Assembly (NCBI GenBank): GCA_028715345.1
Contig: JAQUSB010000012.1
Coordinates: 1 to 49,011 of the forward strand
From: Candidatus Omnitrophota bacterium
Lineage (GTDB): Bacteria > Omnitrophota > Gorgyraeia > 2-01-FULL-45-10
DNA: 49,011 bases
Direction: 5' to 3'
This document shows, in pieces, positions 4,411 through 43,934 of this stretch (positions are counted from its first letter, which is position 1; the number at the start of each line of letters is the position of its first letter). Under the pieces are notes generated by a model. The model ran no database searches. It was given only the letters and a program-made list of their open reading frames with translations, and was not told the origin of the DNA. Made by a program: the position numbers and the translations under genes.

Positions 4411-5254
4411 ATGAGTTATTACAGAATATTGGGGCTGGAAGCAGAACCTTTTTCCACAAGCCCGGACCCGCAGTTTTTTTTACCAATCCAAAGAGCACAA
4501 ATCCGTCCTTTACCGCCTACGCATAGCAGTCGAGTTAAAACGAGGTTTAAGCCTGGTCCTCGGCGATGTCGGGACAGGCAAGACGACCCTGTCGAGGAAA
4601 CTTTCCCAACTCTTAAAATCGGATTCGGGCCTCATAATGACTATGATACTAAACCCGATATACGAATCCGAAAAGCAGTTCTTGGCCGATCTGGCCGAGC
4701 GATTTGGGATAAACAATATCCCCGGCTCGACCGTCCTCGATTATCTTAAGGCGATAGAGAAGTTCCTTTTCGAAAAATGCGTCGAAGAGAATAAGACGAT
4801 CGTCCTGCTCATAGACGAATCCCAGAAATTGACCGATCCCTGCATAGAGATACTGCGCACCATCCTCAATTACGAAACCAACGAATATAAAATCCTCCAG
4901 CTTATCATAATGGGGCAGATGGAACTTCTGCCGCGCATAAGTACTATAAAGAATCTGTGGGACAGGATATCGCTAAAGTATATGCTCAACCCTCTCGACG
5001 AGGACGAAGTGAGGGAGCTTATAGCTTTCAGGTTGAAACAGGCCGGCTATGCGTCTAAGCACCTTCTCTTTACCGAAAGCGCCATAGATGCCGTATATAA
5101 CCACAGCCAGGGATATCCCAGGAGGATAGCCATGCTATGCCACGACGCGTTGGAGCACCTTGTGATGCGCAACAAAGGCATAGTAACGGCCGACATAATC
5201 CAGGAAATAATAAAAAATGAGCTGTCGCCTTTCCAGGGCGCGCTTAAGTCATAA
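4411..5254 (+). CDS. gspA: GspA/ExeA-like AAA+ ATPase, interrupted by a frameshift in a T8 run
   Basis: The first 23 codons (FGLxxxPFxxSPDPxFF-type start) belong to the ExeA/GspA family, but the frame then leaves the family. Skipping one base within the T8 run at 4474-4481 restores a continuous 280-residue protein: YQSKEH follows at once, then the Walker A GDVGTGKTT (corrected residues 51-59) and Walker B LLIDESQ (about 132-138). The C-terminal part matches the GspA ATPase lid region. GspA, normally with GspB, energises assembly of the GspD secretin through peptidoglycan; no GspB or peptidoglycan-binding domain is seen here. The stop overlaps the gspC start (TAATG). The break could be a sequencing error, a real mutation or slippage at the homopolymer. 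Confidence 0.82.
4474..4481 (+). other. T8 homopolymer at the gspA frameshift
   Basis: Eight consecutive T follow CAG. Seven would keep the ExeA-family reading frame open through the Walker A motif. The family-like sequence changes frame exactly across this run, so it marks the indel or slippage site. Confidence 0.85.
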
Positions 5255-5925
5255 TGGCAGAGAATATTTCGCCGGAAGAGAAACTCTTCAGGATCATACA
5301 GAAAGAGAAGGCCGCGCCCGCGACGGCAGAACGCCCTCCGGCTTTCCATCCGCCCGCGGCCGATTGGCTCAAAAAATTCGGCGAAACGGCTCTGCAGTGG
5401 AAAGATAGATTACTCAACCCGTCAAAAGCGAAGAAGCTCGTCCTGGATCTGCAGCTGCGGACCGTTAACATATTTTTAACCGCGGTGCTTGTGTTGCTCG
5501 TCGTATCCTTGATATATTATGCCGTGAGGAATTATCCGAACACCGCAAAAGTGACGCTCGCGACGGCTACGGCTCAGACTTTTCTTCCGCCCGAAGCGAA
5601 AAGCGCCGGGCAAGTCCATAGCGCCGGAGATTACCTTAACGCTGCCAGGCAGAGGAACATATTTACAGCCACTCAGGATGCCGGCAGTGTAAGTCAGGAT
5701 GCCGGCGCGCCCGTCCAGGAATTCGACCGGGCCAGCCTGGGCGATCTGAAGGTCCAGGGAATATCGTGGGGCGATGTTCCTAAAGTTATGATACAGAGCG
5801 CGAAAGACAATAAATTTTATATATTGAAACAGGGCCAATCCGTAGGCTCGACCGGTGTTAAGGTCAAGACGATACTTCGCAATAAAGTAGTGCTCACTGC
5901 GGGGGACAAAGATTTTGAACTATAA
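5254..5925 (+). CDS. gspC: GspC-like inner-membrane component of type II secretion
   Basis: The product has 223 residues. Residues 1-68 are cytoplasmic and polar, unusually long and proline/alanine-rich. Residues about 72-92 form a single membrane span (IFLTAVLVLLVVSLIYYAV). The periplasmic part contains RNIF near 135, a hallmark of GspC/PilP-type proteins, and a homology-region-like beta domain at about 162-223 (LKVQGISWGD through VVLTAGDKDFEL). In type II secretion this domain contacts the N0 domain of the secretin. There is no C-terminal PDZ domain, which in classical GspC helps choose substrates. The start overlaps the gspA stop and the end overlaps gspD by 11 bases. PilP is the alternative name if the apparatus is pilus-like. 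Confidence 0.83.
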   Translation: MAENISPEEKLFRIIQKEKAAPATAERPPAFHPPAADWLKKFGETALQWKDRLLNPSKAKKLVLDLQLRTVNIFLTAVLVLLVVSLIYYAVRNYPNTAKVTLATATAQTFLPPEAKSAGQVHSAGDYLNAARQRNIFTATQDAGSVSQDAGAPVQEFDRASLGDLKVQGISWGDVPKVMIQSAKDNKFYILKQGQSVGSTGVKVKTILRNKVVLTAGDKDFEL

Positions 5926-7501
5926 GAAATTTGCCGTAATTTCGATGAGTCTGCTCCTTCTGGCCACCCCGGCCTGCGGAGAGCCGGGCTCATATATATC
6001 CGAGCCCGTCGAGATGTCTCACCATCCTTCTATATCCGAATACGGCATCGAGGGGCTGAAGAAACGCCTTTCCTTAGATATACGCTCGATGGACATAAAC
6101 CAGTTCCTGAAGTTTCTCGCTACCGAAGGCTCGCTGAATATAGTAACTACGAAAAACGTCTCCGGCCTGGTCAGTTTACTCATAAACGACGTGACGATAG
6201 CGGATGCGCTCGAGATAGCCCTTTCCGCGAACAACCTCGCGAGCGAAAAGAAGGAAAATATCATTTCGATAATGACGAACGCGGAATACAAGGCCATGTA
6301 CGGCGTCGATTTTTACGACCAGCGGATGACTTTCGTTTACCAGTTGAAATATGCTTCCGTAAAAAACGTCTCTGCCATGCTTGCCAATATAAAAAGCGAT
6401 ATAGGCAAAGTCATATCGGATGAATCGACCGGGACCATAGTCATCATAGATACTCCGGCGAAAATACGGGAGATGAAGGAAGTGATAAAGCAGCAGGAGC
6501 TGCCTACCGTTACGAGAGTCTACCCGACGGAGACCAAAGTATTCGAAATGAAATACGCCAAGATAGAGACGATAAAAGACGAGTTGACGAAGCTGCTCAC
6601 TCCCGATATAGGCACGATGAGGACGGACACCAGGACCAACAGCGTGATGATCACCGACCTGCCGTACCAATTCAGGCGTATCGAGACGATGCTGCACGCT
6701 TTCGACAGGAAGGCGAGGCAGGTCTTCATAGAGGCGCACATAGTAGAAGTAACGCTTGGCGACCAGTTCCAGTGGGGCGTCGACTGGGAGAAGGTCATAC
6801 GTATAGCCGGCACCCACGGGATCAAGTTCATACCGAGCATATCGCTGCCCCTGGCCGCTGCGACGACGATGGGGACCCTGTCGATACAGACGGCGAATGC
6901 GACGACGCCAAATGCCATCATACAGATGCTCGGCACGGTCACGGAGACGAGGATACTCTCCAACCCGCACCTTACGGTAGAGGAGGGTAAGGAGGCAAAG
7001 ATAGAAGTCATCGAAAAGCAGCCGTATCAGGAAGATACGACGACGACGGCTTCCGGCGGCACTACCACGGCTTCGAAGAGCTATCAGTGGGTGAATGTCG
7101 GCATCACTTTAAATGTTACTACGAGGATAAATAAAGACGGCAATATAAACATGCTCATAAAGCCGGAGGTAAGCTCTATCGAGACATGGTACGGCGGCAT
7201 GGCGCAGGCAGCCGGCGCGGTGCCTGTAGTGAAATCGTCGAATGCACAGACGACGGTAAATGTCAAAGACGGCACTACGATAATCATAGCCGGCATGATA
7301 TCCGACAATAAAGTCAGGACGATAAATAAGATACCGTTCTTCGGCGATCTGCCTGTAGTAGGCAAAGCATTTCAGAACATAAGCGATAATATATCGCGGA
7401 CGGAAACCATAGTCTTTTTGACCCCGAAGCTGGTCGAGGGTGATAAGAGCTTCCTGTTGGAAAAGGAATTGCCCAAGATGTCCGGCGGGATACGGGAATA
7501 A
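5915..7501 (+). CDS. gspD: Secretin GspD/PilQ (outer-membrane channel)
   Basis: This 528-residue secretin starts at TTG inside the end of gspC. Residues 1-22 form a signal peptide; a cysteine follows but the lipobox is poor, so lipidation is doubtful. An N0/STN-like domain spans about 50-130 and two N-type ring domains about 140-195 and 208-285. The secretin core (about 285-515) has SNPHLTVEEGKEA and the signature VKDGTTIIIAGMI followed by KIPFFGDLPVVGKAF, which shape the gate and barrel. It is shorter than classical GspD (about 650 residues) because it has fewer N domains. It forms the multimeric outer-membrane pore through which cargo leaves. Neighbouring gspC supplies its inner-membrane partner. 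Confidence 0.94.
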   Translation: MNYKKFAVISMSLLLLATPACGEPGSYISEPVEMSHHPSISEYGIEGLKKRLSLDIRSMDINQFLKFLATEGSLNIVTTKNVSGLVSLLINDVTIADALEIALSANNLASEKKENIISIMTNAEYKAMYGVDFYDQRMTFVYQLKYASVKNVSAMLANIKSDIGKVISDESTGTIVIIDTPAKIREMKEVIKQQELPTVTRVYPTETKVFEMKYAKIETIKDELTKLLTPDIGTMRTDTRTNSVMITDLPYQFRRIETMLHAFDRKARQVFIEAHIVEVTLGDQFQWGVDWEKVIRIAGTHGIKFIPSISLPLAAATTMGTLSIQTANATTPNAIIQMLGTVTETRILSNPHLTVEEGKEAKIEVIEKQPYQEDTTTTASGGTTTASKSYQWVNVGITLNVTTRINKDGNINMLIKPEVSSIETWYGGMAQAAGAVPVVKSSNAQTTVNVKDGTTIIIAGMISDNKVRTINKIPFFGDLPVVGKAFQNISDNISRTETIVFLTPKLVEGDKSFLLEKELPKMSGGIRE

Positions 7502-7544
7502 TTCGTGCTTGAATATGTGCCGGCGAACCTACAAAGGTGAGGAC

Positions 7545-10415
7545 ATGAAAAAAATCGCAATAATTTTGCTTCTATTCGTCTTCGTATCCGCGACCCCCGC
7601 GCGATATGCCTTCGCTGCGTGGGGCAGTTCGGACAAAGAGTCGAAGCTGCAGAAAGAGTCGTACGAAAAGCTTATAAGTAAGAACATCGAGCTGAGGAAC
7701 GAAGTCGACACATTGATAAAGGAGCAGGAGCAGCTTCGCGAGATCTACAAAGTGCTGCTCGAAAAAGTTAAAACGCTGCAGCGCGACAATGCCCTTGTAT
7801 TGAAGGATAAAGACTCGACCGAGCGCGCGGCGGAGGATGCTCAAAAAGCCATTACGGCGCTGAAGAAAGAGCTCGCCGATTCTAATTCCAGGATAATGAA
7901 GATGCAGGCGGTCATAGGAAAACCCGAAGTCGGGGTCAAAAAAGGCACAGCCGCTTATTACGAGAAGAACATACTTCACCTGAGCAATTCCCTGAAGAGT
8001 TCCGAGGCCAAATATAAAAGCGCCGCGGCGGAAAAAGACGCGCTTCTTAAGGAATTGGGAGAGATAAAGGACAAGCTTGCCGCGCAGAAGATGGATTCGG
8101 ATAATTCGGCGGGTAAGCTTAAAGAGCAGTACGCTAAGATCGAGGCCCAGGCCGGAAAGATCGACGAGCTTTCGCTCCAGCTGGAAGAAGAGCTTAAGGG
8201 TAAACAGTCCTCCGCTGAAGAACTGGAGGATGTCCGCGCCTCTTTAAAGGAAAAAGAAGGGCAGCTCAAAGAAGAGTACGATAAATTTACCGAAAACATG
8301 AGATCCATGGAAGAGATGCAGGCGAAAAAGATCGACGAGCTTTCGGCCGAGCTGAAAAAAGAGCAGGATAGCAGGGAGGACGCGGTTAAGGAACTGGGCC
8401 GGATGAAAGAGAAATTCGCCGGCCAAAAAGCCGGCTCGGAAGAAGCGCTAAGCCAGGTCAAGGACCTGTCCGTGAAGATAGATGCGCAGGCCAAAAAGAT
8501 CGACGAGCTTTCGGCCGAGCTGAAAAAAGAGCAGGATAATAAACAGTCCGCCGCCGGTGAACTGGATAGGGTCCGCGCCTCTCTGCGGGAGAAGGACGAC
8601 CAGATAAGATCGAAGGACGCGGAGATCAAAAACTCGTTATCGGCAGGAGATAAGCTTTCCGAAAAGATCAATGCCCTGGAAGCGGACGCCAAGATCGATA
8701 AGAAGGCCCTGAACGAATACGCCGCACAGATGAAGGAACAGGACGCTAAGGTCGCGAAGATAAAAGAGGAGATCGCATCTTCCGAAGTTAAATTCAGGCA
8801 AAAAGAGAAAGATATCGAAAGCCTGCGCGCAGCAGGCCAGGCTCAGAACCAGAAGATGCGCACGCTCGAGCAGGATATTTTAGAAAGCGCTTCTACTATA
8901 AAGGAACAGGCCGAGAAATTGAAATCTTCCCGAACCCGCATAGACGCGCTCGAAGCGGAGATAAAAAAGAAGAGCGATAGCCTTTCCGCGGCACAGGATG
9001 CTCTCAAATCCCGCGATGAAGATACTAAAAAGCTCAAAAAAATATTCAGCATGGACGAGCTTAGGAAAAAGCATCCCGGCATATTCACGGCGAAGAAAGA
9101 TGCGGTGAAAGAATATACGAAGAGCGACGCCGCCAAACGCGTCAAAGAGGCTATAGATAAAGCAAACGCCCGCCGAAAGATAAAAGACGAGAATCTCCGC
9201 GCGCTGGAGAAGAAGATAGCCGATGCCGTGTCGTCGGAGAACAAGCTCAAGGCTGAATTGGCGAATGCGGATGAGAAGATAAAAGAAAGCCGCAGCGGCA
9301 TAACCGGATCGGAAGAGCGTATCAAGGAAGAGAAGATAAAATTCGATTCGGAAGACGGGAAGATAAAAGAGCTCGAACTCTCTATAAACGGCGTTGCCGC
9401 TACGCAGATGGACCTGCAGGCGAAGCTGGATGCTGCGCCTAAAAAGATAGCCCAGATCGAGGCTACCCTTAAGGACCTGCCGGCTAACCTGCCGAAGGAC
9501 AGTCCGGCCGGATTTAAAACATCCGAGATGAGGTCTTTAGAAAGCCAGCTTGCTAAGGCGCGCGAAGAAGAGAGCGCTCTTAAGGATGAGGTGCGCGCTG
9601 CCGAAAACAAGATCGCAGAATTAAAAGATACGGCAGAGGCGTCGCGCGCGAAAATAAAACGCGATCTCGAGGCGAAAGTCAATGAGTGCAAGACGGAGAT
9701 AAAGGCGTTCGAGAAGAATATAATCGAAAGCAAAAATACGAAGCGCGCGCTGGGCAGGAAGATACAGAAGCTTATGCGCGATATCGATAAACTGAATAAG
9801 AAAAAAGAGGCCGTCCTGGCAGCTATAAAAAAAGACGACGAAGAGATAACGGACCTTAAAAAGATCATCGAGAAAGAAGCGGGCGAAATAAAGGATGCCG
9901 AGGACACCGGTAAGATACCGGCGGCGCAGGAGAATGCCGATGCCGAGCCTGCCGACGAGGCCCGGAATGTCATCTCGTTCTTAAGCGGCCGTATAGATGA
10001 GCTTAAAAGCAAGAATGACGAACTCCAAAAAAGTATAGCGTCCTCGAAGGCCGCGGAGACGGAAGCTGTGCGCGACAGGGAGGCTGAAAAAAGCAGGGCC
10101 GACGAAGCTATTCGAAAAACGAAAAAAGAGAATATAAATATGCATTATAACCTTGCGGTCGTCTACGAAAGGAACGGTATGTATAAAGACGCCGAGCGCG
10201 AATACCTGAAATGCCTCGATCTGGACAATAGCGACGCAGGGGTGCATTATAATTTGGCCGTCTTATACGACGACAAAATGAACAATAATTTTAAGGCCAC
10301 TAAACATTACAGGGCCTATCTGAAGCTGACCCCCAAAGGTAGAAATACCTATAAAGTTCGGCAATGGCTTACCGATATAGAGCTTGAAAGCCGCCTGGGG
10401 GTGGAGGCGCGATGA
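7545..10415 (+). CDS. Exported coiled-coil protein with C-terminal TPR repeats
   Basis: The start is the ATG at 7545, preceded by AGGTGAGG and followed by a clear signal peptide (MKKIAIILLLFVFVSA, cleavage near residue 25, AFA). An upstream in-frame ATG would destroy this peptide. The 956-residue product is almost wholly charged heptad repeat (residues about 40-850), with an internal segment KIDELSAELKKEQD repeated. Residues about 865-955 hold two TPR-like units (NMHYNLAVVYERNGMYKDAEREYLK and a second copy). It should form a long periplasmic rod with a protein-binding end. It lies after gspD and its stop overlaps the sensor kinase start (ATGA), so it may feed the kinase or scaffold the secretion complex. 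No named family recognised. Confidence 0.85.
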   Translation: MKKIAIILLLFVFVSATPARYAFAAWGSSDKESKLQKESYEKLISKNIELRNEVDTLIKEQEQLREIYKVLLEKVKTLQRDNALVLKDKDSTERAAEDAQKAITALKKELADSNSRIMKMQAVIGKPEVGVKKGTAAYYEKNILHLSNSLKSSEAKYKSAAAEKDALLKELGEIKDKLAAQKMDSDNSAGKLKEQYAKIEAQAGKIDELSLQLEEELKGKQSSAEELEDVRASLKEKEGQLKEEYDKFTENMRSMEEMQAKKIDELSAELKKEQDSREDAVKELGRMKEKFAGQKAGSEEALSQVKDLSVKIDAQAKKIDELSAELKKEQDNKQSAAGELDRVRASLREKDDQIRSKDAEIKNSLSAGDKLSEKINALEADAKIDKKALNEYAAQMKEQDAKVAKIKEEIASSEVKFRQKEKDIESLRAAGQAQNQKMRTLEQDILESASTIKEQAEKLKSSRTRIDALEAEIKKKSDSLSAAQDALKSRDEDTKKLKKIFSMDELRKKHPGIFTAKKDAVKEYTKSDAAKRVKEAIDKANARRKIKDENLRALEKKIADAVSSENKLKAELANADEKIKESRSGITGSEERIKEEKIKFDSEDGKIKELELSINGVAATQMDLQAKLDAAPKKIAQIEATLKDLPANLPKDSPAGFKTSEMRSLESQLAKAREEESALKDEVRAAENKIAELKDTAEASRAKIKRDLEAKVNECKTEIKAFEKNIIESKNTKRALGRKIQKLMRDIDKLNKKKEAVLAAIKKDDEEITDLKKIIEKEAGEIKDAEDTGKIPAAQENADAEPADEARNVISFLSGRIDELKSKNDELQKSIASSKAAETEAVRDREAEKSRADEAIRKTKKENINMHYNLAVVYERNGMYKDAEREYLKCLDLDNSDAGVHYNLAVLYDDKMNNNFKATKHYRAYLKLTPKGRNTYKVRQWLTDIELESRLGVEAR
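8325..8538 (+). repeat. 46-base exact repeat inside the coiled-coil gene
   Basis: Positions 8325-8370 and 8493-8538 are identical over 46 bases, 168 bases apart (56 residues, eight heptads). A decayed third copy begins near 8159. This points to growth of the rod by in-frame duplication of eight-heptad blocks. Confidence 0.85.
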
Positions 10416-11605
10416 GGCTGAAAGTAACGCTCATATTCACGCTCTCCATACTTATCCCCACCGTGCTGTTGGCATACTTCGGCCTTAAGGCGGTCAGGAG
10501 CGAGCGATCGATCGTCGAGCGGAGCATGCAGGAGCGGTACGAGACCATGGCTGATATCATCGAAAACGAGATCGATACTACGCTCGCCGGCGTTTCGCGC
10601 TCGTTTGTTAAAAATAAAACGGTCGTAGAATTGATAATCCTCGACCAGGCGTCGTTATTCAAAGACCAGGTATCCGTGCACAGGGCCGACGGCTCCGTCC
10701 TGGGGGAGGCCGATAAAAAATACCTGAAGAATCCTGTAGTGACGCGGCGGCTTAAGAACCTGCCGTATACGCTGACCGTATACGAGCGTTACCCGGCGCT
10801 TTTGGAAAGATACGAGGACAGGAAGAAAGCCCTCTATTTTTACGTTACGATAATAGCGATATCCGCGGTCTTGATACTTGCGGGCGCCGCGTTTACCCTC
10901 GGCGCATTGTCGCGGCAGTGGCAGCTGGCTGAGCTCAAGAGTGAGTTCGCATCCAGCCTTTCGCACGACCTCCGCCGCCCGCTCACATCCATACGGATGT
11001 TCTCCGAGATGCTGAAAGACAACCTTGTCGCCAGCGACGAGAAACGCCGTGAATATTACACCGCGATAAATAGCGAATCGGAGCGGCTTACCCAGCTTGC
11101 GAATAATATACTCGATTTTTCCCGCATAGAGAACGGCCGTAAGGTCAAGCATTTGAAACAGGAAGATGTCGCCAGGCTCGTGAAAGAGACGGTCGACTAT
11201 TTCCAGTCTTACAGCCTGGACGAGGCTCATCCCGTTTCGATATCGATACCGCAAGGACTGCCCTTCATACGTATAGATGCAAGCACGATATCCCAGGCCA
11301 TCCTTAACCTTCTATCTAATGCCGCCAAATATTCCGATCCGGGCAAAGCCATAAAAGTTTCCGTAAAGAAAAGGCTCAAAGACCTGGCGATCGAGGTCGC
11401 CGACGAAGGTACGGGCGTACCTAAATCCGAACAGAAGAAGATATTCCGTAAATTTTACCGCGTCCATAAAGATACGGCTGACGTGGAAGGCTCCGGGCTT
11501 GGGTTGGCGCTGGTCAAATACGCCGCAGAGATCCACGGCGGACGTGTCGAACTCGTAAGCAAAGTAGGCGAGGGCAGCAGATTTACGCTCACCCTGCCGC
11601 TATAA
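10412..11605 (+). CDS. Membrane sensor histidine kinase
   Basis: This 397-residue kinase has membrane spans at about 5-25 and 141-165 enclosing a periplasmic sensor of about 115 residues of no recognised family. No HAMP domain is evident; the second span leads within about 10 residues to the dimerisation helix. The phospho-acceptor is His185 in SLSHDLRRPLTS. The ATPase domain shows the N box (LNLLSNAAKYS, Asn303), G1 (DEGTGVP, 331-337), F box (FRKFYR) and G2 (GSGLGLA, 360-366). It is complete. The start overlaps the coiled-coil/TPR gene, and the partner regulator follows by five bases. Kinase before regulator is the reverse of the commonest order. The periplasmic coiled-coil protein is a plausible signal source by position. 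Confidence 0.95.
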   Translation: MRLKVTLIFTLSILIPTVLLAYFGLKAVRSERSIVERSMQERYETMADIIENEIDTTLAGVSRSFVKNKTVVELIILDQASLFKDQVSVHRADGSVLGEADKKYLKNPVVTRRLKNLPYTLTVYERYPALLERYEDRKKALYFYVTIIAISAVLILAGAAFTLGALSRQWQLAELKSEFASSLSHDLRRPLTSIRMFSEMLKDNLVASDEKRREYYTAINSESERLTQLANNILDFSRIENGRKVKHLKQEDVARLVKETVDYFQSYSLDEAHPVSISIPQGLPFIRIDASTISQAILNLLSNAAKYSDPGKAIKVSVKKRLKDLAIEVADEGTGVPKSEQKKIFRKFYRVHKDTADVEGSGLGLALVKYAAEIHGGRVELVSKVGEGSRFTLTLPL

Positions 11606-11610
11606 TTATA

Positions 11611-12288
11611 ATGCCGAAAATCCTGATAGTCGAAGACGATAAACACATACTGACCGGGCTTGTGGACTCGCTCGCGATGGAGGGCTATAAGACCGTCATT
11701 GCCAGGGACGGCAAGGAGGCGCTCGCCCAGGCTAAGGATAAAGCGCCGGATCTTATTATACTCGACATAATGCTTCCCAAGCTTAACGGCTACGAGGTAT
11801 GTAAACAGCTGCGTTCGCGCGGGATGAATATACCGATCATCATATTGAGCGCCCGCGCGCAGGAAGCCGATAAGGTGCTCGGCCTCGAGCTGGGCGCCGA
11901 TGACTACGTTACGAAGCCGTTTTCGCCGCGCGAGCTTATAACGCGCGTCAAGACCGTGCTGCGCAGGATGGAGACGGCCGGCAAAGTCGACGACAAGCTT
12001 TCTTTCGGCAACATAAAGATAGATTTCAGGAAGTTCCAGGCGTCCAAAGGCGGTAAGGAGATAAAGCTGACGGATGCGGAGTGTAAGATATTGAAGCTTC
12101 TCCTGGCGAGCCCGGGCGAGCCGGTCTCGCGGCATAAGATATTATCCGAGATCTGGACCAATGAGGAGGTCACTACCCGCACGGTCGATACGCACATATG
12201 GAATCTCCGGGAAAAGCTGGAGGACGATCCGTCGGACCCTAAACATATATTGACGGTGCACAGGATAGGATATAAATTTGCGGAGTAG
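11611..12288 (+). CDS. OmpR/PhoB-family response regulator
   Basis: The 225-residue regulator has a receiver domain (1-120) with acidic Asp9-Asp10, phospho-acceptor Asp52 in LIILDIMLP, switch Ser80 and Lys102 in TKPFSP. A winged-helix DNA-binding domain follows (about 128-225), with the typical C-terminal TRTVDTHIWNLREKL and IGYKF. All receiver residues needed for phosphorylation are present. It pairs with the kinase directly upstream. PhoB-type regulators bind tandem direct repeats spaced about 11 bases apart, and exactly such repeats lie 21 bases after this gene, ahead of the DUF2341 and giant genes. Control of those genes is therefore a sequence-supported inference. Confidence 0.95.
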   Translation: MPKILIVEDDKHILTGLVDSLAMEGYKTVIARDGKEALAQAKDKAPDLIILDIMLPKLNGYEVCKQLRSRGMNIPIIILSARAQEADKVLGLELGADDYVTKPFSPRELITRVKTVLRRMETAGKVDDKLSFGNIKIDFRKFQASKGGKEIKLTDAECKILKLLLASPGEPVSRHKILSEIWTNEEVTTRTVDTHIWNLREKLEDDPSDPKHILTVHRIGYKFAE

Positions 12289-12308
12289 CGGCGGACCTAT
12301 GGGACGGC

Positions 12309-12352
12309 TTGACAACTTCTTGACAATTTCTTAACGCGGTTCTGACAACTTT
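12309..12352 (+). promoter_or_regulatory. Candidate response-regulator operator: four 11-base phased repeats
   Basis: Units start at 12309 (TTGACAACTTC), 12320 (TTGACAATTTC), 12331 (TTAACGCGGTT) and 12342 (CTGACAACTTT), exactly 11 bases apart. Units 1, 2 and 4 are close copies and unit 3 is degenerate. The 11-base phase is what PhoB/OmpR-type winged-helix dimers use. The array sits between the response regulator gene and the DUF2341 gene, upstream of a -10-like TATACT. Confidence 0.7.
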
Positions 12353-12367
12353 TGCCGGGATATAAGA

Positions 12368-12373
12368 TATACT
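12368..12373 (+). promoter_or_regulatory. -10 element TATACT downstream of the phased repeats
   Basis: TATACT lies 15 bases after the last 11-base repeat unit. The only -35-like match, CTGACA in unit 4, is 20 bases away, too far for good unassisted use. This is the arrangement expected of an activator-dependent promoter. Transcription would begin about 35 bases before the ATG at 12415. Confidence 0.5.
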
Positions 12374-12414
12374 AATAGTGTAAGCTAACGTAAAACAAAT
12401 GCGAGGGCGCCACA

Positions 12415-14988
12415 ATGCGTAAACTGACACTTATAATGATCCTGGCTTTAGTATCGCTTGCGATGCCGGCGGCGCAGACAGACGCCGCTACGGTAACGGC
12501 GAAGAGGGCAGTGTTCGAGCGCCCGCTCTCCTGGCGCGCGGACGGGGCGGGCCAATATGCGTTTAAGGGCAACGTTACCTTAACGAAGGCCGCCATAGCA
12601 ACCGACGGCTCGGTCCAGTCCGCATCAGGCGGCACATGCGAGCTCACTATGCCGTATACCGCAGCCGGCAAAATATCCACGATCAGCGCGAACTGGACGT
12701 TTACGGGTAAAGTTACGCTTGAGGTGAGCGCCACAGGCAATGAGAAAGATTACGTCGCCGTCACGAACGGCGTTCCTCTCGCCCGGGAGGCATTCGCTGC
12801 AGGCTCCGGCCTGAAGTGGCGCGCGGCGCTGGACGCGGGCAGCGCCCTTACCGAAGTGAAAATAGCATATACCGACTCTTCCGGGGTATCCGGCACTTTC
12901 GGAAATCCCGATATCAGCGGCTTCGCACACAGGAAAAAAGTATACATCGAAAATCCTTCCAAGACGGCGTTATATAATTTTCAGATGCAGCTGAAGATAG
13001 GCGAATCGAAAAAGTCTGCCAATTGCGCGTTTTACCTGGATACGGCGCCGCTCCCCGATTTTACCGACATACGCTTTACGCAGGCTGACGGCCAGACGAG
13101 CCTGCCTTATTTTATCGAAAACGTCAACGGCAAAAAGGCGTCCCGCACGGCGGCTGTATGGCTGAAGATCCCCGAGATACCGAAAGAAGGCCTCCCTATA
13201 TATATTTATTACGGCAATAGCAAGGCGGCCGATCTGTCGAGCGCCGCGGCGGTCTTCGATTTCTTCGACGATTTTACCGCAAATCTTAATAGCGCCGGAT
13301 GGAAGGTCGAGCTTGAGTCTAAAGACAGCCTCGTATCGGTTTCCGGTTCTACGCTTGCCATAGACGCCGCGCGCGTCACGACGTCGGCGTATAAATTTTA
13401 TAACGGCATAATAGAATACAGGGCGAAGATGGTCGCTAACGGCGGCATCGAGTGCATCATAATAGCGGGCGCGTCCCGGGACGAGGACCTGTCCGCATAT
13501 TCTTCCATCATGGCAGCGTCAGCGCACTGCATTGTGAAGAACGGTAAAGTCCTGGCAAATTATCCTAAACAGATCTCTCTCGATACATATTACGATTTCG
13601 GGATATCGGCAAACGGCGGCGACATCACTTTCGCGAGATACGCCGACGGCTCTTTCGAGGCGCCGCAGGCGGAAGTGAAAGTGTCGCTGTCGAGCGCGCC
13701 GTCGTCCGCGTCCCCGATAGGCTTCTCGGCGGGCAAAGGCGGCACCGGCTTTGTCTGCGACTGGATCCGCACGCGCCGTTATGCGGCGCTGCCTCCGCAG
13801 GTGGACGCGGCCAAGACCGCCTCTTCCGCCGAGGAGACGACCGACCTGCCGCGATTCGATTCTCTTACGCTTGCCCCGGACGGCAGCGTGGTGCCGGCCT
13901 CCGGCAAAACGACCGGTACCTACACGTCGCGCCTTACGACGATCCCGTTCGACGCCCGCATACTTACCGCAGCCTGGACCGAGGCCGCGCCGGACGACAA
14001 CCCTATAAAGGTAAGCGTATCTACAAAGGAAGACGCGTCATACGTTAGCGGCTGGTCGAACGGCAGGGCTAAATACGTTTCGAAGAAAGAATTTACGAAA
14101 GGTAATAAGCTGAGATATAAGGTCGTTATTACTAAGGCTTCCGCGGCGAAAGCGGCGCCTTCCCTGGAAAAATTTACGCTCGGTTTCGAGCCGGGCACGA
14201 TAAAGGTCATCTCGCCCGCCGGCGGTGAGATCATCGCGCCGCTTAGTGCATACTCGATAATGTGGGAGACGACGGGCTACGAAGATTCTTACTTTATGGA
14301 CATATCCTATTCCGATGACGGCGGGTTATCTTTCCGGCCGATAGCGCCGAAAGTCGCCAATACAGGCAGCTACGAATGGAAGACCCCCGAGATAGAATCC
14401 GCCGAAGTCATAATGATGGTAGCCGATTCTCTGGATAAGAGCGTATGCGGCGTCTCCGAAGCGCCGTTTTCTATAACTACATATATAGAGGAAGGCAAGG
14501 CAGTTGAAGGGAAGAAGACGACTTCCGAGAGCGAAGCTAAAGCCTCGAGCGAAACCGTAAAGAAGGAAGAGTCTAAGGCTGCCGAAGAAGAGAAGAAGCC
14601 CGGCGCCAAGAAATACGACATATTGCTTAAGCTGGGCGATAACGTTACATCTAATGCGGATGAAGACGCGCGGGCCTCTTTTAAAGAGGGCGATATAGTC
14701 ATGATAAAGCCCGCAGGCTATAACTGGTCCGATACCGAGCGCCACAGCTTTCTTATAGTGCAGGCGGAGCTTACCGAAGCCGAAGCCGCTGACCTGATGA
14801 GGCCGGAGGAGACCGTCATAGGCAAGGATAAGACGGGTAAGGATATAGTGAAAGTGACCGGAGCGAGAAAATATAAGATAGACCTGAACAAACGCGGCCT
14901 GGCCATACAAAAAGACGCCGCGATGAAGGGAATGCTGAAGTATGCGCCGGTCGTGAGCAAAGCGGAAATAGACGATAAGGGAAAATAA
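12415..14988 (+). CDS. Exported DUF2341 / Ig-like surface protein
   Basis: This 857-residue protein begins with a signal peptide (MRKLTLIMILALVSL, cleavage near residue 24). Its N-terminus closely resembles that of the giant protein that follows. A DUF2341 domain spans about 168-290 (FAHRKKVYIENPS through GLPIYIYYGN and AVFDFFDDF), typical of bacterial surface proteins and probably a jelly-roll fold. An Ig-like domain of the Kre9/KNH-like type is at about 600-690 (ISPAGGE through YEWKTPE). A Lys/Glu-rich linker at about 695-735 leads to a C-terminal domain of unknown type. No membrane anchor or sorting signal is seen. It ends 15 bases before the giant gene, so the two are surely co-transcribed and probably co-exported. 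Binding partner unknown. Confidence 0.85.
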   Translation: MRKLTLIMILALVSLAMPAAQTDAATVTAKRAVFERPLSWRADGAGQYAFKGNVTLTKAAIATDGSVQSASGGTCELTMPYTAAGKISTISANWTFTGKVTLEVSATGNEKDYVAVTNGVPLAREAFAAGSGLKWRAALDAGSALTEVKIAYTDSSGVSGTFGNPDISGFAHRKKVYIENPSKTALYNFQMQLKIGESKKSANCAFYLDTAPLPDFTDIRFTQADGQTSLPYFIENVNGKKASRTAAVWLKIPEIPKEGLPIYIYYGNSKAADLSSAAAVFDFFDDFTANLNSAGWKVELESKDSLVSVSGSTLAIDAARVTTSAYKFYNGIIEYRAKMVANGGIECIIIAGASRDEDLSAYSSIMAASAHCIVKNGKVLANYPKQISLDTYYDFGISANGGDITFARYADGSFEAPQAEVKVSLSSAPSSASPIGFSAGKGGTGFVCDWIRTRRYAALPPQVDAAKTASSAEETTDLPRFDSLTLAPDGSVVPASGKTTGTYTSRLTTIPFDARILTAAWTEAAPDDNPIKVSVSTKEDASYVSGWSNGRAKYVSKKEFTKGNKLRYKVVITKASAAKAAPSLEKFTLGFEPGTIKVISPAGGEIIAPLSAYSIMWETTGYEDSYFMDISYSDDGGLSFRPIAPKVANTGSYEWKTPEIESAEVIMMVADSLDKSVCGVSEAPFSITTYIEEGKAVEGKKTTSESEAKASSETVKKEESKAAEEEKKPGAKKYDILLKLGDNVTSNADEDARASFKEGDIVMIKPAGYNWSDTERHSFLIVQAELTEAEAADLMRPEETVIGKDKTGKDIVKVTGARKYKIDLNKRGLAIQKDAAMKGMLKYAPVVSKAEIDDKGK

Positions 14989-36205: not shown

Positions 36206-36919
36206 ATGCTTATCAAATTGATCATAATACAGATAATCACATTCCTCATAATCCTCATTGTTCTGAAAAAACTTCTGTATACCGAAACCGCAAAAGAGAT
36301 CGAGCGTTTGAAGAAACTTAAGGAAGAATTTACGCATAAAGAAAAAGAGCTGCAGGTGCGGATAGCTTCGACGCAGGAAAGTATTACGCAAAAGATGGCA
36401 AAGGCCGAAGAAGACGTCCGCATATACCGCGAAGCGAAGAAGAAAGAAGCGGAGTCTCTTAAGCAGGAGATCCTGGCCGGAGCGCGCGACAGGGCCGAAG
36501 AGACGATAAAAGCTGCGGTGAATTCGAGGGAAAAGATACGCGAAGAGATAATGCTCGAGATGAAAGGCAGGCTTCCGGCCGCCGCCGCCGGCATATTCAA
36601 AGAAGCCCTGTCCGCGGAGATGGTAGAGTTTGTACACGGCAGGCTGGTTTCGGAGGCTGTGTCCAGGATAAAGAAGATGGATAAAAATATACTCAAAGGC
36701 AAATCGGGAAAGGGCGAGTTGATCTCGGCGTATCCGCTGAAAAAGAGCGAAAGAGATAATATATTATCGGCCGTTTCCGAACGCGCCGGGCGCGAAGCGG
36801 CGCTGGCCGAAAGAGATGATAAGGCGCTGATAGCAGGCGTGATAGTTAAATTCGGCTCGCTCGTTATAGACGGCAGCCTCGAGAATAGATTGAAACAGGC
36901 GGAGGAGAGGTTAGGCTGA
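36206..36919 (+). CDS. atpF: F-type ATPase b subunit fused to delta C-terminal domain
   Basis: The product has 237 residues. Residues 3-24 form a membrane span and about 25-125 a charged helix with right-handed-coil spacing, as in the b stator stalk. Residues about 170-237 match the delta C-terminal domain: ISAYPLKKSERDNIL, then a D-x-x-LIAGV-x-V-x-FG motif and VIDGSLENRLKQ, the usual delta ending. The six-helix N-terminal domain of delta, which binds alpha, is not recognisable. Mycobacterial b-delta fusions keep the full delta, so this is a smaller variant. GAGGGGCGG before the ATG is a good ribosome binding site. It would be the peripheral stalk linking membrane and F1 head. Confidence 0.86.
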   Translation: MLIKLIIIQIITFLIILIVLKKLLYTETAKEIERLKKLKEEFTHKEKELQVRIASTQESITQKMAKAEEDVRIYREAKKKEAESLKQEILAGARDRAEETIKAAVNSREKIREEIMLEMKGRLPAAAAGIFKEALSAEMVEFVHGRLVSEAVSRIKKMDKNILKGKSGKGELISAYPLKKSERDNILSAVSERAGREAALAERDDKALIAGVIVKFGSLVIDGSLENRLKQAEERLG

Positions 36920-36926
36920 TCCGCTG

Positions 36927-36980
36927 TGTCATTCCCGCGGAAGAGGCGGTTCTGTCATTTTTGCGAAAGCGGGGATCTAT
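36927..36980 (+). repeat. Dispersed hairpin-type repeat remnant between b/delta and c genes
   Basis: TGTCATTCCCGCGG at 36927 is echoed by TGTCATTTTTGCGAAAGCGG at 36953, ending GGATCTAT. This looks like the TGTCATTCCCGC-GAAA-GCGGGAATC family of short palindromic repeats scattered through many bacterial genomes, here imperfect and partly doubled. It sits in the only sizeable gap (82 bases) of the ATPase cluster. Confidence 0.55.
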
Positions 36981-37001
36981 AAGAAGGCAGGGTCTGATTA
37001 T

Positions 37002-37214
37002 ATGCGCACTATACTTGTAGTTACGCTGATGATAGCCACCATATTGGGTCCGTCGGTAGTTATAGGCATGATAGCCTATGGCTCTATCCGCGCGCTGGGC
37101 AGGAACCCTTCCGCCGCGCCCAAGATACTGCTCGCGATGATAATAGCGCTGATATTTGCGGAGGCCGTGGCGGTCGTTTCGCTATTGATATTGTTCCAGT
37201 TGTTCAACGGATAA
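37002..37214 (+). CDS. atpE: F-type ATPase c subunit (proteolipid ring)
   Basis: This 70-residue hairpin has two membrane helices (about 3-30 and 40-67) joined by a polar loop with the family RNP signature (Arg34-Asn35-Pro36). The ion-carrying carboxylate is Glu54 in IALIFAEAVAVVSLLI. Sodium-type c subunits have Gln in helix 1 and Glu-Ser in helix 2. Here the helix 1 position, 13 residues before the loop Arg, is Ile, and Ala follows Glu54, so proton use is more likely. The ring would turn against subunit a, which is not encoded in this window. Alpha follows eight bases later. Confidence 0.93.
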   Translation: MRTILVVTLMIATILGPSVVIGMIAYGSIRALGRNPSAAPKILLAMIIALIFAEAVAVVSLLILFQLFNG

Positions 37215-37222
37215 TATAAATT

Positions 37223-38674
37223 ATGCCGGAATCGGTAAGTATAAGAGAAATAGGCAGGATAAAAGAGATCAAGAAGTCTATCGTCAAGATAAAGGGCCTG
37301 CCTAACTGTATGCTGGGGCAGCTTATAAATTTCGGCGACAGGACCAAGGGATTCGTGATGGGGTTTACCGAGGACGAAGTGCTCGTCCTGATGCTCGGCT
37401 TATCCACCGGGATAGGCTCCGGAGACGAGGTCTCGTCCGAAGAAGAGATGTTCAGGATACCGGTGGGGAAAAATTTCATCGGCAGGATAGTAAATCCTCT
37501 GTGCCAGCCGCTCGACGGCAAGCCGCGCGTAAGCGAAGCCGAGACGGCGTATATATTCCGCGACGCCGCGGCTATCCTCGACAGGGTGCCTATCGACGAG
37601 ATGCTCATGACCGGTATACGCGTGGTCGATTCGTCCATTCCGATAGGTAAAGGGCAAAGGCAGCTCATAATAGGCGACCGCATGACCGGCAAGACGACGA
37701 TCGCCGTCGATACCATCATAAACCAGAAGCATGACAACGTCATCTGTATATACTGCTGCATTGGCCACGATTACGCTTCCTTCGAAAAAGTAATGACCTG
37801 CTTCAAAGAGTCGGGCGTCTTCGACTATTCCGTAGTGGTCGCCGCGCTGGCCTCTTCACCTATAGGAGAACAGTACCTCGCTCCTTACGCCGCCGCCGCG
37901 CTGGGCGAGTATTTCATGTATTCGGGCAGGCATGTCCTGATCGTGCTCGACGACCTCACCAAACATGCATGGGCATACCGCGAATTATCGCTGCTCCTGG
38001 AAAGAGCGCCGGGCAGGGAGGCGTACCCGGGAGACATATTTTACCTTCACGCCCAGCTTATGGAGCGCGGCGCCAGACTTTCCGCGCGTAAAGGCGGAGG
38101 GTCGATGTCGATACTCTCGATCGTCGATACTCTCCAGGGAGACATCGCGGGTTTCATTCCGACGAATACCATATCCATGACGGACGGGCAGATATTTTTA
38201 AGTTCGGCGCTGTTTGCCGAAGGGTTCAAGCCTGCCATAGACGTGGGCTTGTCCGTTTCGCGTATAGGTACGAAAGTCCAGCCGCCGCTTTTACGGGAAC
38301 TTACCAAAGACGTCGGCTTAGGGTACATACAGTACAGGGAGCTCCTTAAGGCCACCAGGCTCAGGGCCGGGATTTCGGAAGAGTTGAATGCGCGTCTTAA
38401 GCACGGGGAGAAGATCGAGAGGATATTCATCCAGGATAAGAACCATCCCTCGCCCGTAGCGGAGCAGGTCATACTTTTTTACGCGCTTAAAAAAGGGGTG
38501 CTCGATGAACTTTCCGACGATGCATGCGAAGATTTTAAGATGAATATCCTGAAATTTGCCGAAAAAAATTATCCGCGCCTGATAGTAAAATTAGAGGCCG
38601 CGGGCGCTTTTACAGCCGAAGATAAAAAAGAACTGAACGAGTGCCTGGTATCGTTTTTCAGGAAACGGGAGTAG
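37223..38674 (+). CDS. atpA: F-type ATPase alpha subunit, N-terminally short
   Basis: The product has 483 residues. Walker A GDRMTGKT is at 151-158, about 18 residues earlier than in E. coli alpha (169-176); the protein begins inside the first beta barrel (EIGRIKEI through GLPNCMLGQLINFG). The missing piece is the N-terminal helix that binds delta. Other hallmarks are intact: PIGKGQRQLIIGDR, VLIVLDDLTKHAWAYRELSLLL, PGREAYPGD, FIPTNTISMTDGQIFL and the arginine-finger loop VGLSVSRIG near 340-350. It forms the non-catalytic sites of the F1 hexamer with beta. Its order with c before and gamma then beta after is standard; the absence of separate delta is not. Confidence 0.95.
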   Translation: MPESVSIREIGRIKEIKKSIVKIKGLPNCMLGQLINFGDRTKGFVMGFTEDEVLVLMLGLSTGIGSGDEVSSEEEMFRIPVGKNFIGRIVNPLCQPLDGKPRVSEAETAYIFRDAAAILDRVPIDEMLMTGIRVVDSSIPIGKGQRQLIIGDRMTGKTTIAVDTIINQKHDNVICIYCCIGHDYASFEKVMTCFKESGVFDYSVVVAALASSPIGEQYLAPYAAAALGEYFMYSGRHVLIVLDDLTKHAWAYRELSLLLERAPGREAYPGDIFYLHAQLMERGARLSARKGGGSMSILSIVDTLQGDIAGFIPTNTISMTDGQIFLSSALFAEGFKPAIDVGLSVSRIGTKVQPPLLRELTKDVGLGYIQYRELLKATRLRAGISEELNARLKHGEKIERIFIQDKNHPSPVAEQVILFYALKKGVLDELSDDACEDFKMNILKFAEKNYPRLIVKLEAAGAFTAEDKKELNECLVSFFRKRE

Positions 38675-38678
38675 CGTA

Positions 38679-40941
<2,263 letters not shown>

Positions 40942-40966: not shown

Positions 40967-42667
40967 ATGGCATTGCGGATCGGGGATATACTGGTCGAAA
41001 AAAAGTTGATAACCAAAGAGCAGCTGAAGATCGCTATAAACGAGCAGCAGAAGACCGGGGAATTTTTGGGATGGATATTGATCAAATTCAAATATATCAC
41101 GGAACGGACTATGCTCGAGGCATTGGCCGAACAGCAGGGCATACCATTCATAGACTTGAAAGCGACCAAGCCCACGGCCGAGGCCATAAAGACCGTCAAG
41201 GCCAAATTCGTCTGGCACTATAAGGTCGTGCCTGTGAGCCTGGCCGGCGGCGTTTTGACGGTGGCGGTTTCTGACCCGTTCGACATGTGGCCGATCGACG
41301 ACCTTGAGGCGCATCTGGGGTACAAGGTGGAGAAAGGGCTCTCCACATCTACGGATATAGCGGAAGCTATAAAAGAGTATTACGGCGTCGGGGCGGATAC
41401 GATAGAGACGATACTTGCAAAAGAAGAGAAAGCCTCCGGCGCGGCCCATGCGGAAACGGCGATAAAAGAGAACGTCCAGGACCTGGAAAAACTTGCCGGC
41501 GACGCATCCGTGATAAAGTTGGTAAACCAGATATTGCAGCAGGCCATAAAGGACAGGGCGACCGATATACATATCGAGCATTTCAGGGATGACGCGGTGC
41601 TGCGTTACAGGGTGGACGGCATACTTTACGATACGCAGGTCAGCGGGAACATCAAATACCTTTATCCTGCCATCGTTTCCCGTATAAAGGTCATGTCGGG
41701 GCTCGATATAGTAGAGCGCAGGCTTCCTCAGGACGGCAGGGCGAAAGTCAGGATAGGCGTCAAGGAATACGAACTGCGCGTATCAGTCATCCCGACGCTC
41801 CACGGCGAAAATATAGTCATAAGGATACTCCCGACGACGATGCTTTTCAGTATCTCGGACCTCGGCATGGCGCCGGCCGACGAGAAGATACTCCAGGAAC
41901 TGCTCGGCCGGCCGCACGGTATCATATTCGTAACCGGCCCGACGGGAAGCGGTAAGACGACGACCCTGTACGCGTCTTTAAGCAAGCTCAACACCCGCGA
42001 GCGTAAAATAGTCACGATCGAGGACCCTATAGAATATGAGCTTAAAGGCATATCCCAGACGCAGATAAATTCCAAAATAGATCTTACATTTGCCGCTATG
42101 CTCAGGAGCATGCTAAGGCACGACCCCGACGTAATGATGGTCGGAGAAGTCAGGGATTTCGAAACGGCCGAAGTCACGATACAGACCGCGCTGACAGGCC
42201 ATCTCGTCTTTTCCACCATCCACACAAATGATGCAGCCAGCGGTGCGACCCGTCTTATAGATATAGGCATAGAGCCGTACCTGATCGCCTCGTCGGTAAA
42301 CGCTTTCATTGCGCAGCGTCTTGTGCGCACCATCTGTAAGAACTGCAAAGAACCTGTGAAGATGAAAAACGACAAATTCAAAGCCGAAGGCGTAACTTTG
42401 GGCAAAGAGATAACGGTATATCGCGGTAAGGGCTGCAAGGCGTGCAATAATACCGGTTATATGGGCAGGACCGGCATATACGAGATACTTTTGGTCAATG
42501 AAGAGATAAAGAAGCTGATAGTCCAGAAGACATCTTCCGATGTCATAAAAGAGAAAGCCGCCGAACTGGGTATGCATACGCTTTTACAGGACGGTTGGAC
42601 GAAGATACTTTCGGGGGCGACTACGATCGAAGAGATCATAAGAGTCATACAGTTGGAAGGAGTTTGA
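40967..42667 (+). CDS. gspE: GspE/PilB-type secretion ATPase
   Basis: This 566-residue cytoplasmic hexameric ATPase powers pseudopilus growth. An MshEN-type N-terminal domain spans about 1-145 (RIGDILVEKKLITKEQL). The motor core has Walker A GPTGSGKT (324-331), the Asp box IEDPIE (351-356), Walker B PDVMMVGEVRD (387-397) and the His box GHLVFSTIHTND (411-422). Two CxxC pairs (Cys457/Cys460, Cys490/Cys493) form the zinc site found in GspE and PilB. ACAGGAG before the ATG is a good ribosome binding site. It opens the second half of the secretion set, far from gspC and gspD; gspF starts one base after its stop. Confidence 0.96.
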   Translation: MALRIGDILVEKKLITKEQLKIAINEQQKTGEFLGWILIKFKYITERTMLEALAEQQGIPFIDLKATKPTAEAIKTVKAKFVWHYKVVPVSLAGGVLTVAVSDPFDMWPIDDLEAHLGYKVEKGLSTSTDIAEAIKEYYGVGADTIETILAKEEKASGAAHAETAIKENVQDLEKLAGDASVIKLVNQILQQAIKDRATDIHIEHFRDDAVLRYRVDGILYDTQVSGNIKYLYPAIVSRIKVMSGLDIVERRLPQDGRAKVRIGVKEYELRVSVIPTLHGENIVIRILPTTMLFSISDLGMAPADEKILQELLGRPHGIIFVTGPTGSGKTTTLYASLSKLNTRERKIVTIEDPIEYELKGISQTQINSKIDLTFAAMLRSMLRHDPDVMMVGEVRDFETAEVTIQTALTGHLVFSTIHTNDAASGATRLIDIGIEPYLIASSVNAFIAQRLVRTICKNCKEPVKMKNDKFKAEGVTLGKEITVYRGKGCKACNNTGYMGRTGIYEILLVNEEIKKLIVQKTSSDVIKEKAAELGMHTLLQDGWTKILSGATTIEEIIRVIQLEGV

Positions 42668-42668
42668 T

Positions 42669-43934
42669 ATGCCCATATATTCGTATTCGGCGAAACGCGG
42701 TCCCGGTAAACCCGTTTCCGGAGAGATAGAAGCTCCGACGCAGGAAAATGCCCTTGAAAAGATCGAGGAGATGGGGATGATCCCCGTCAAAATAGAAGAG
42801 AAGGGCCAGGCGCAGAAGGCGGCCAAAAGGCCCGCCCCGGAGAAGAAGCCTGTATTTATAGATCGTAACCAGGTTCATTCCGTTACGCCGGGCTTGAAGG
42901 CAAAAGTAAAGAGCGGAGCCCTGGATACGTTTACGAGGCAGCTTGCGAGCCTGGTAAAGTCCAACGTGCCCATGCTGCAGGCGCTGGCTCTGCTCGCGAA
43001 GCAGACCGAAGACAAGACGTTAAAAGGCATCGTCTTCGACCTTGGTAAGCAGATCAAAGACGGTAAGATGCTGTCGGAGGCTATGTCGGTATATCCGAAA
43101 ATATTCAATAACATGTATTTAAGCATGATAAGATCGGGCGAACGCAGCGGTACGCTCGACGAGGTTTTGTACAGGCTTGCCGAACACCGCGAACGCGAGC
43201 AGGAATTAAGGCATAAGATACAGGCGGCTTTAGCGTATCCGGTCCTTGTAATAGTGGTAGGGGTGGGTACGATATTCGTGATGCTGACATATTTTTTGCC
43301 GAAACTTACCGTGATCTTCAAAGGTATGAAGCAGGAATTGCCGTTGCCGACCAAGATACTCATGGGCATCACGGATTTCATGTCCGCCTACTGGTATCTT
43401 CCCGCCATCGTCTGCATATTCCTGGTATTCATGCACCCGAGATCCGGATCGCGCAAGAAGGTATTGTTCGACATGATCAAGATGCATATACCTTTCCTGT
43501 ATAAATTTACGCGCGACGCCGAGATAGCGAGGTTCGCCAAGTCGCTGGCGATACTGCTCAAAAACGGCCTCGCCGTCCATGAAAGCCTGGAACTTGCCGC
43601 GAGCTCTATCGATAACGAGGCTATGAAAGAATCGATCGCCCGCGCGGGCAGGGACATCATCGACCACGGCATGTCGCTGTCGACAAGTTTCGCAAAGACG
43701 AACATATTCCCGGAATTTACCATAAATATGATATCGGTAGGAGAAGAGAGCGGGAGAGTGACGGAAGCCCTCGATGAAATAGCGAACGTTTACGAGAGGG
43801 AAGTCAACCAGACGATAAAGATAATGTCGGCCCTCATGGAACCGGTGCTGATACTTATCGTCGGAGCCGTGGTCGGTTTCATCGTGTTCGCCATGCTGAT
43901 GCCGGTATTCAATATAGGGCTGGCGGGACGATGA
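42669..43934 (+). CDS. gspF: GspF/PilC-type inner-membrane platform protein
   Basis: This 421-residue protein has the family layout: a charged N-terminal cytoplasmic domain beginning with PIYSYSAKRGPGKPVSGEIEA, two repeated GspF domains (about 85-205 and 290-410) and three membrane spans near 193-218, 240-260 and 388-413. Hallmarks are FTRQLASLVKSNVPMLQAL (first copy), FAKSLAILLKNGLAVHESL (second copy) and SVGEESGRVTEAL. It couples the GspE motor to pseudopilin assembly. GGAAGGAG precedes the ATG. Its stop overlaps the metallopeptidase start (ATGA). Confidence 0.96.
   Translation: MPIYSYSAKRGPGKPVSGEIEAPTQENALEKIEEMGMIPVKIEEKGQAQKAAKRPAPEKKPVFIDRNQVHSVTPGLKAKVKSGALDTFTRQLASLVKSNVPMLQALALLAKQTEDKTLKGIVFDLGKQIKDGKMLSEAMSVYPKIFNNMYLSMIRSGERSGTLDEVLYRLAEHREREQELRHKIQAALAYPVLVIVVGVGTIFVMLTYFLPKLTVIFKGMKQELPLPTKILMGITDFMSAYWYLPAIVCIFLVFMHPRSGSRKKVLFDMIKMHIPFLYKFTRDAEIARFAKSLAILLKNGLAVHESLELAASSIDNEAMKESIARAGRDIIDHGMSLSTSFAKTNIFPEFTINMISVGEESGRVTEALDEIANVYEREVNQTIKIMSALMEPVLILIVGAVVGFIVFAMLMPVFNIGLAGR

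Follow-up and report, generated by a model that had tools for sequence, protein, structure and literature searches.

The stretch of DNA analysed here (hereafter the window, 49,011 nucleotides of an Omnitrophota contig) carries a secretin cassette, a sensor histidine kinase and a response regulator, followed by the genes for a secreted DUF2341 protein and a giant secreted protein (Table 1). Domain matches of the regulator to PF00072 (112.5 bits) and PF00486 (85.9 bits), both above cut-off, place it in the OmpR/PhoB family, and hydropathy predicts two membrane helices in the kinase with about 110 amino acids between them. Four short direct repeats lie entirely inside the 126-nt gap between the stop of the regulator gene (12288) and the next ATG (12415); the initial annotation had located this array between an OmpR/PhoB-family regulator and the DUF2341/giant gene pair, a placement that domain matches and coordinates confirm. 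No terminator was found between the regulator and the array, and an Rfam search of positions 12200-12600 (E up to 1) matched no RNA element. The giant gene is presumed to be co-transcribed with the DUF2341 gene ahead of it.

Table 1. Array, promoter and neighbouring genes in the window; "13 sites" are the array promoters found in the phylum.
Feature	Position	Strand	Remarks
Upstream cassette	4411..10415	+	ExeA/MshM-like ATPase, small membrane protein, secretin, TPR/coiled-coil protein
Sensor histidine kinase	10412..11605	+	HisKA and HATPase_c; conserved beside regulator
OmpR/PhoB-family response regulator	11611..12288	+	PF00072, PF00486; likely binder
Operator unit 1 (candidate), CTTGACAACTT	12308..12318	+	TTGACA core near-invariant across 13 sites
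Operator unit 2 (candidate), CTTGACAATTT	12319..12329	+	TTGACA core near-invariant across 13 sites
Operator unit 3 (candidate), CTTAACGCGGT	12330..12340	+	Degenerate here; several relatives with full TTGACA
Operator unit 4 (candidate), TCTGACAACTT	12341..12351	+	Occupies -35 place; TGACAA (near-)invariant, 13 sites
Spacer, 16 nt	12352..12367	+	Length identical in all 13 sites, letters not
-10 hexamer TATACT	12368..12373	+	Transcription start predicted near 12380
Secreted DUF2341 protein	12415..14988	+	PF10102; first gene after promoter
Giant secreted protein, 6474 aa	15004..34428	+	15 nt behind DUF2341 gene

The order of the cassette is kept in G017, G021, G023, G025, G040, G156, G253 and G397. 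Its ExeA/MshM-like ATPase gene (4411-5254), a single frame in relatives, is split by a frameshift near its start, close to a run of eight T residues (4474-4481); this may reflect an assembly error, a pseudogene or phase variation. In the TPR protein (7440-10415) about 95 amino acids at the C-terminus are conserved, and the long coiled-coil part differs widely in length among genomes. Pfam matches of the giant protein are all weak; one of them is to the autotransporter passenger repeat PF12951. Further downstream, a set of F-type ATPase genes (36206-40941) adjoins genes for a pilus/secretion ATPase (MshEN and T2SSE) and a platform protein (T2SSF) at 40967-43934.

The four units follow one another at exact 11-bp steps (12308-12351), with TGACA present in units 1, 2 and 4 and weak in unit 3 (CTTAACGCGGT). 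The 11-bp phasing noticed in the initial annotation is upheld, in a register that begins one base earlier, at 12308. When four successive 11-mers were scored against their own majority throughout the 49-kb window, this array gave the top score (36/44), which was unique, and none of 5000 dinucleotide-shuffled versions of the intergenic region reached it; TGACA at offsets 0, 11 and 33 likewise appeared in 0 of 5000. The genome search for the same phased motif that had been suggested at the outset returned the array once. Direct repeats of 11-bp period, about 7 bp plus a 4-bp spacer, have the form by which OmpR/PhoB-family operators are defined, all known sites of the family being direct repeats of this kind, where cooperatively bound protein may build up to tetramers (PMC4832192).

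Across the phylum the array was found at 13 promoters in 11 genomes, with both the 11-bp repeat spacing and the 16-nt gap to a -10-like hexamer constant, and all 11 genomes encode an orthologue of the regulator (66-75% identical). The initial annotation had named the absence of the repeats from relatives with an unchanged gene order as a refutation, and the outcome is the opposite: repeats, spacing and -10 are retained in G021, G025, G040 and G397, and in the first three the regulator orthologue (70-74% identical) is followed by the same array at an equal distance to TATACT. The array is also kept in G130, G156, G253, G359, G371 and G379, where other genes lie downstream or the contig stops. 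Among the aligned sites, TTGACA of units 1 and 2, TGACAA of unit 4 and TAT--T at the -10 are preserved and the flanks have diverged; unit 3 is degenerate in the genomes of families f1 and f16 and has the full TTGACA in several others. Calculated from 10 sites (one per locus, G397 left out), information content averages 1.37 bits for the array and 1.73 for the -10, compared to 0.57 for the spacer and 0.32 upstream. Judged from these alignments, the pattern is the look of a protein-binding array with a fixed geometry to RNA polymerase. Its specificity is high: in a score scan of about 3 Mb (both strands, locus copies counted, 80 loci around other OmpR-type regulators included), true sites score 48-63 and the next best unrelated site 15.

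The association with the regulator was evaluated in 384 genomes of the class. An array-only pattern allowing up to 3 mismatches gave 12 matches, compared to 1 for the reversed control. Regulator orthologues were identified in 13 of these genomes, 10 of which have the array (nine found by the pattern and the tenth, G253, by the matrix), while no strong array was found in the 371 genomes lacking an orthologue (P about 1e-15, an optimistic value because the array genomes are related and shared ancestry leaves fewer independent events). The three regulator-bearing genomes without an array are G017, whose contig ends right behind the regulator, G023, with another neighbourhood, and G211, where the locus is disrupted. 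Two weak, 3-mismatch matches fall outside the 13; one of them, in G111, has a more distant -10-like word and no regulator orthologue. The weak pattern matches L094 (G111), L099 (G375), L160 and L165-L169 are regarded as chance occurrences, all with low scores and the last two entries without a nearby regulator.

The position of the array relative to its neighbours follows the surface genes. Insertions separate regulator and array in G156 (a small four-helix gene), G253 (a nucleotidyltransferase/HEPN-type pair), G359 (2.7 kb) and G397 (2.2 kb), and in each the array nevertheless remains upstream of a surface gene or the contig end, which is what a role in controlling that gene would predict. 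Wherever the contig continues, the gene behind the array encodes a secreted protein: a DUF2341 protein in G000 and its homologues in G021, G025, G040 and G397, and in G371 a protein of 2395 amino acids with the C-terminal domain of the giant in the window. The phylum-wide search added one further genome with strong arrays, G397, which belongs to another class. Its first array has the complete cassette, with a 68%-identical regulator, on one side and a homologue of the DUF2341 gene on the other, and its second, on contig 34, is directly upstream of a homologue of the giant gene (54% identity over 2007 amino acids). The presumed operon partners of the window are therefore unlinked in G397, each with an array of its own. 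Even away from the cassette (G397 contig 34, G359 contig 59), the array is confined to genomes that have the regulator. Conservation and this co-occurrence together support the original suggestion that the array is a candidate operator linking the two-component system to the giant gene. As separate observations, the second array of G359 (L130, contig 59) lies between two genes with MNWFK-like starts that resemble partly broken copies of secreted-protein genes, and in G253 (L128) and G211 (L131) a nucleotidyltransferase/HEPN-type pair has entered the 3' end of the regulator gene, whose tail is present again on the far side of the insertion.

The promoter itself was initially described as a TATACT -10 without a well-spaced -35, and this description holds. 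The best -35-like hexamer is CTGACA in unit 4 (5/6 match), which at 20 nt from the -10 is too far away to be usable; at spacings of 15-19 nt this promoter matches the consensus in at most 2 of 6 positions. The same geometry recurs throughout, with the closest TTGACA-like word 20 nt from the -10 at every one of the 13 sites and at most a 3/6 match at 17-nt spacing at any of them. The site is thus not a sigma-70 promoter with its own -35, that is, with a hexamer 16-18 nt upstream of the -10.

The regulator has a recognition helix (TTRTVDTHIW[NS][LI]RxK) that is essentially invariant in the 13 orthologues of the class. Its RTVD-HI residues are shared with E. coli PhoB and absent from the two other OmpR-type regulators of the genome, and the bottom strand of the array repeats TTGTCA, which contains the PhoB core TGTCA. 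The term "PhoB-like" in the initial annotation is therefore apt for the spacing and the half-site core; it does not extend to identity, since curated models and context indicate that the regulator is not PhoB itself (TIGR02154, 209 of 296.2 bits; NF007546, 149 of 471; both below cut-off). Named alternatives including RpaB, MtrA, BaeR and WalR/YycF also missed their NCBIfam cut-offs (the best, RpaB, with 235.7 of 330 bits), and none of the 25 best NCBIfam models listed was passed. A role in a phosphate regulon receives no support from the curated models, PhoU loci or box scans: no link of the regulator to phosphate genes (pst/phoU) was found, the array is single in the genome, the PhoU-like gene of this genome sits among other genes with no OmpR-type regulator there, and a scan of PhoU loci from four genomes turned up no box.

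Taken together, the sequence comparisons make it probable (roughly 0.8) that the array is an OmpR/PhoB-family operator-promoter, bound in tandem by the phosphorylated regulator, which thereby activates the operon of the DUF2341 and giant surface genes. The membrane kinase would phosphorylate the adjacent regulator, which would then line up head to tail on the direct repeats of 7+4 bp; two dimers in tandem, making a tetramer, would probably span the region from about -72 to -29. Since unit 4 stands in place of the missing -35, the regulator would recruit sigma-70 RNA polymerase to the lone -10, so that the DUF2341 gene and, behind it, the 19-kb giant gene would be transcribed; activation is deduced from promoter geometry only. 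Such a circuit would operate within a secretin/pilus-type operon and would control more than one surface gene in some genomes.

The main rival explanation, which is considered improbable, is that the regulator occupies the same sites as a repressor and keeps the promoter shut until a signal releases it. The sequence evidence is the same as for activation and would fit either sign, and unit 4 overlaps the -35 region; however, an unaided polymerase would lack a -35 at all 13 sites, and OmpR/PhoB-family regulators bound at such a position are mostly activators. It is very unlikely that the array serves a different DNA-binding protein with its gene elsewhere and that co-occurrence with the kinase and regulator merely reflects linkage. 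The regulator is the likely binder, as judged indirectly from co-occurrence and its recognition helix; that helix fits the TGTCA core, the repeat pattern is typical of OmpR/PhoB regulators, and even the arrays unlinked from the cassette occur only alongside the regulator. TTGACA is also the sigma-70 -35 word, and with a -10 downstream the units could be read as redundant -35 elements of an unregulated promoter in which the regulator has no part; this too is very unlikely, as the nearest such word is too distant everywhere and units 1-3 are farther still, four exact 11-bp units would be superfluous for such a role, and the array is restricted to genomes in which the regulator is present. The probability that the array has no function and is due to chance or common descent, as is conceivable for DNA that related genomes share, can be put at practically nil given the shuffling results, the core and spacing held while flanks and spacer diverged, and the retention of the array despite insertions and at separate loci.

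A variant of the activated operator-promoter proposed here may exist in family f43 (G146, G251, G299; L177, L178, L179), where TTTTACAA occurs three times, followed by a TGACAA-like unit at the same distance to a -10-like hexamer. The variant array heads an operon leading to a kinase-regulator pair, the regulator being 49-50% identical with a recognition helix of RTLDQHI. This operon comprises genes for a secreted protein, the kinase and the regulator, with a vWA-like protein in two of the three genomes and a metallophosphatase-like gene in two of the three. These sequences suggest a wider family of four-unit operators in which motif and helix change together, although they amount to three cases only.

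Among characterized systems, the E. coli Pho box (CTGTCAT plus 4 bp, repeated) resembles the array in its direct repeats of 11-bp period, in the core TGTCA, which the array has on its bottom strand, and in its location in the -35 place, and PhoB shares the RTVD-HI recognition helix. In contrast to E. coli, the half-sites here are oppositely oriented relative to transcription, there are four units, and the array lies beside surface genes and a secretin cassette rather than pst or phoA. The Streptomyces PhoP box (GTTCACC-N4-GTTCACC) is similar in its TT-ACA-type coding-strand word, 7+4-bp architecture and several units upstream of a lone -10, and Bacillus PhoP boxes are TTAACA-like repeats; compared to these Gram-positive systems, the regulator, kinase and targets differ, and no phosphate link was found here. 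PhoP of M. tuberculosis (TCACAGC-N4-TCACAGC) has the same strict 4-bp spacer and binds as tandem dimers, with tetramers on longer repeats (PMC4832192), but its motif and regulon are different.

The giant open reading frames of these ultra-small, probably host-dependent, uncultured bacteria are poorly understood. The window combines a giant open reading frame, an F-type ATPase set and pilus/secretion genes, as do the "symbiotic" F-ATPase/type-4a pilus loci of Omnitrophota, a gene set proposed for host attachment in the phylum, where peptides of one giant ORF were threefold up in attached cells (PMC10066038). The location of the kinase between the secretin/TPR cassette and the giant gene, together with the F-ATPase and type-4a pilus genes downstream, matches that set (PMC10066038). 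The term "two-component" does not occur in the main text of that paper, and no regulator or operator for giant ORFs was found in the literature searched. A tentative and rather doubtful extension is that the extracytoplasmic domain of the kinase detects contact with a surface or a host, or the condition of the secretion machine, and that the operator switches on giant attachment proteins; if true, giant ORFs would be governed by a contact-response circuit that different classes of an uncultured phylum have kept. A defined operator and regulator predict which surface genes form one response and offer a testable handle on giant-gene control, and the operator points to a kinase whose signal would explain the timing of giant-protein production.
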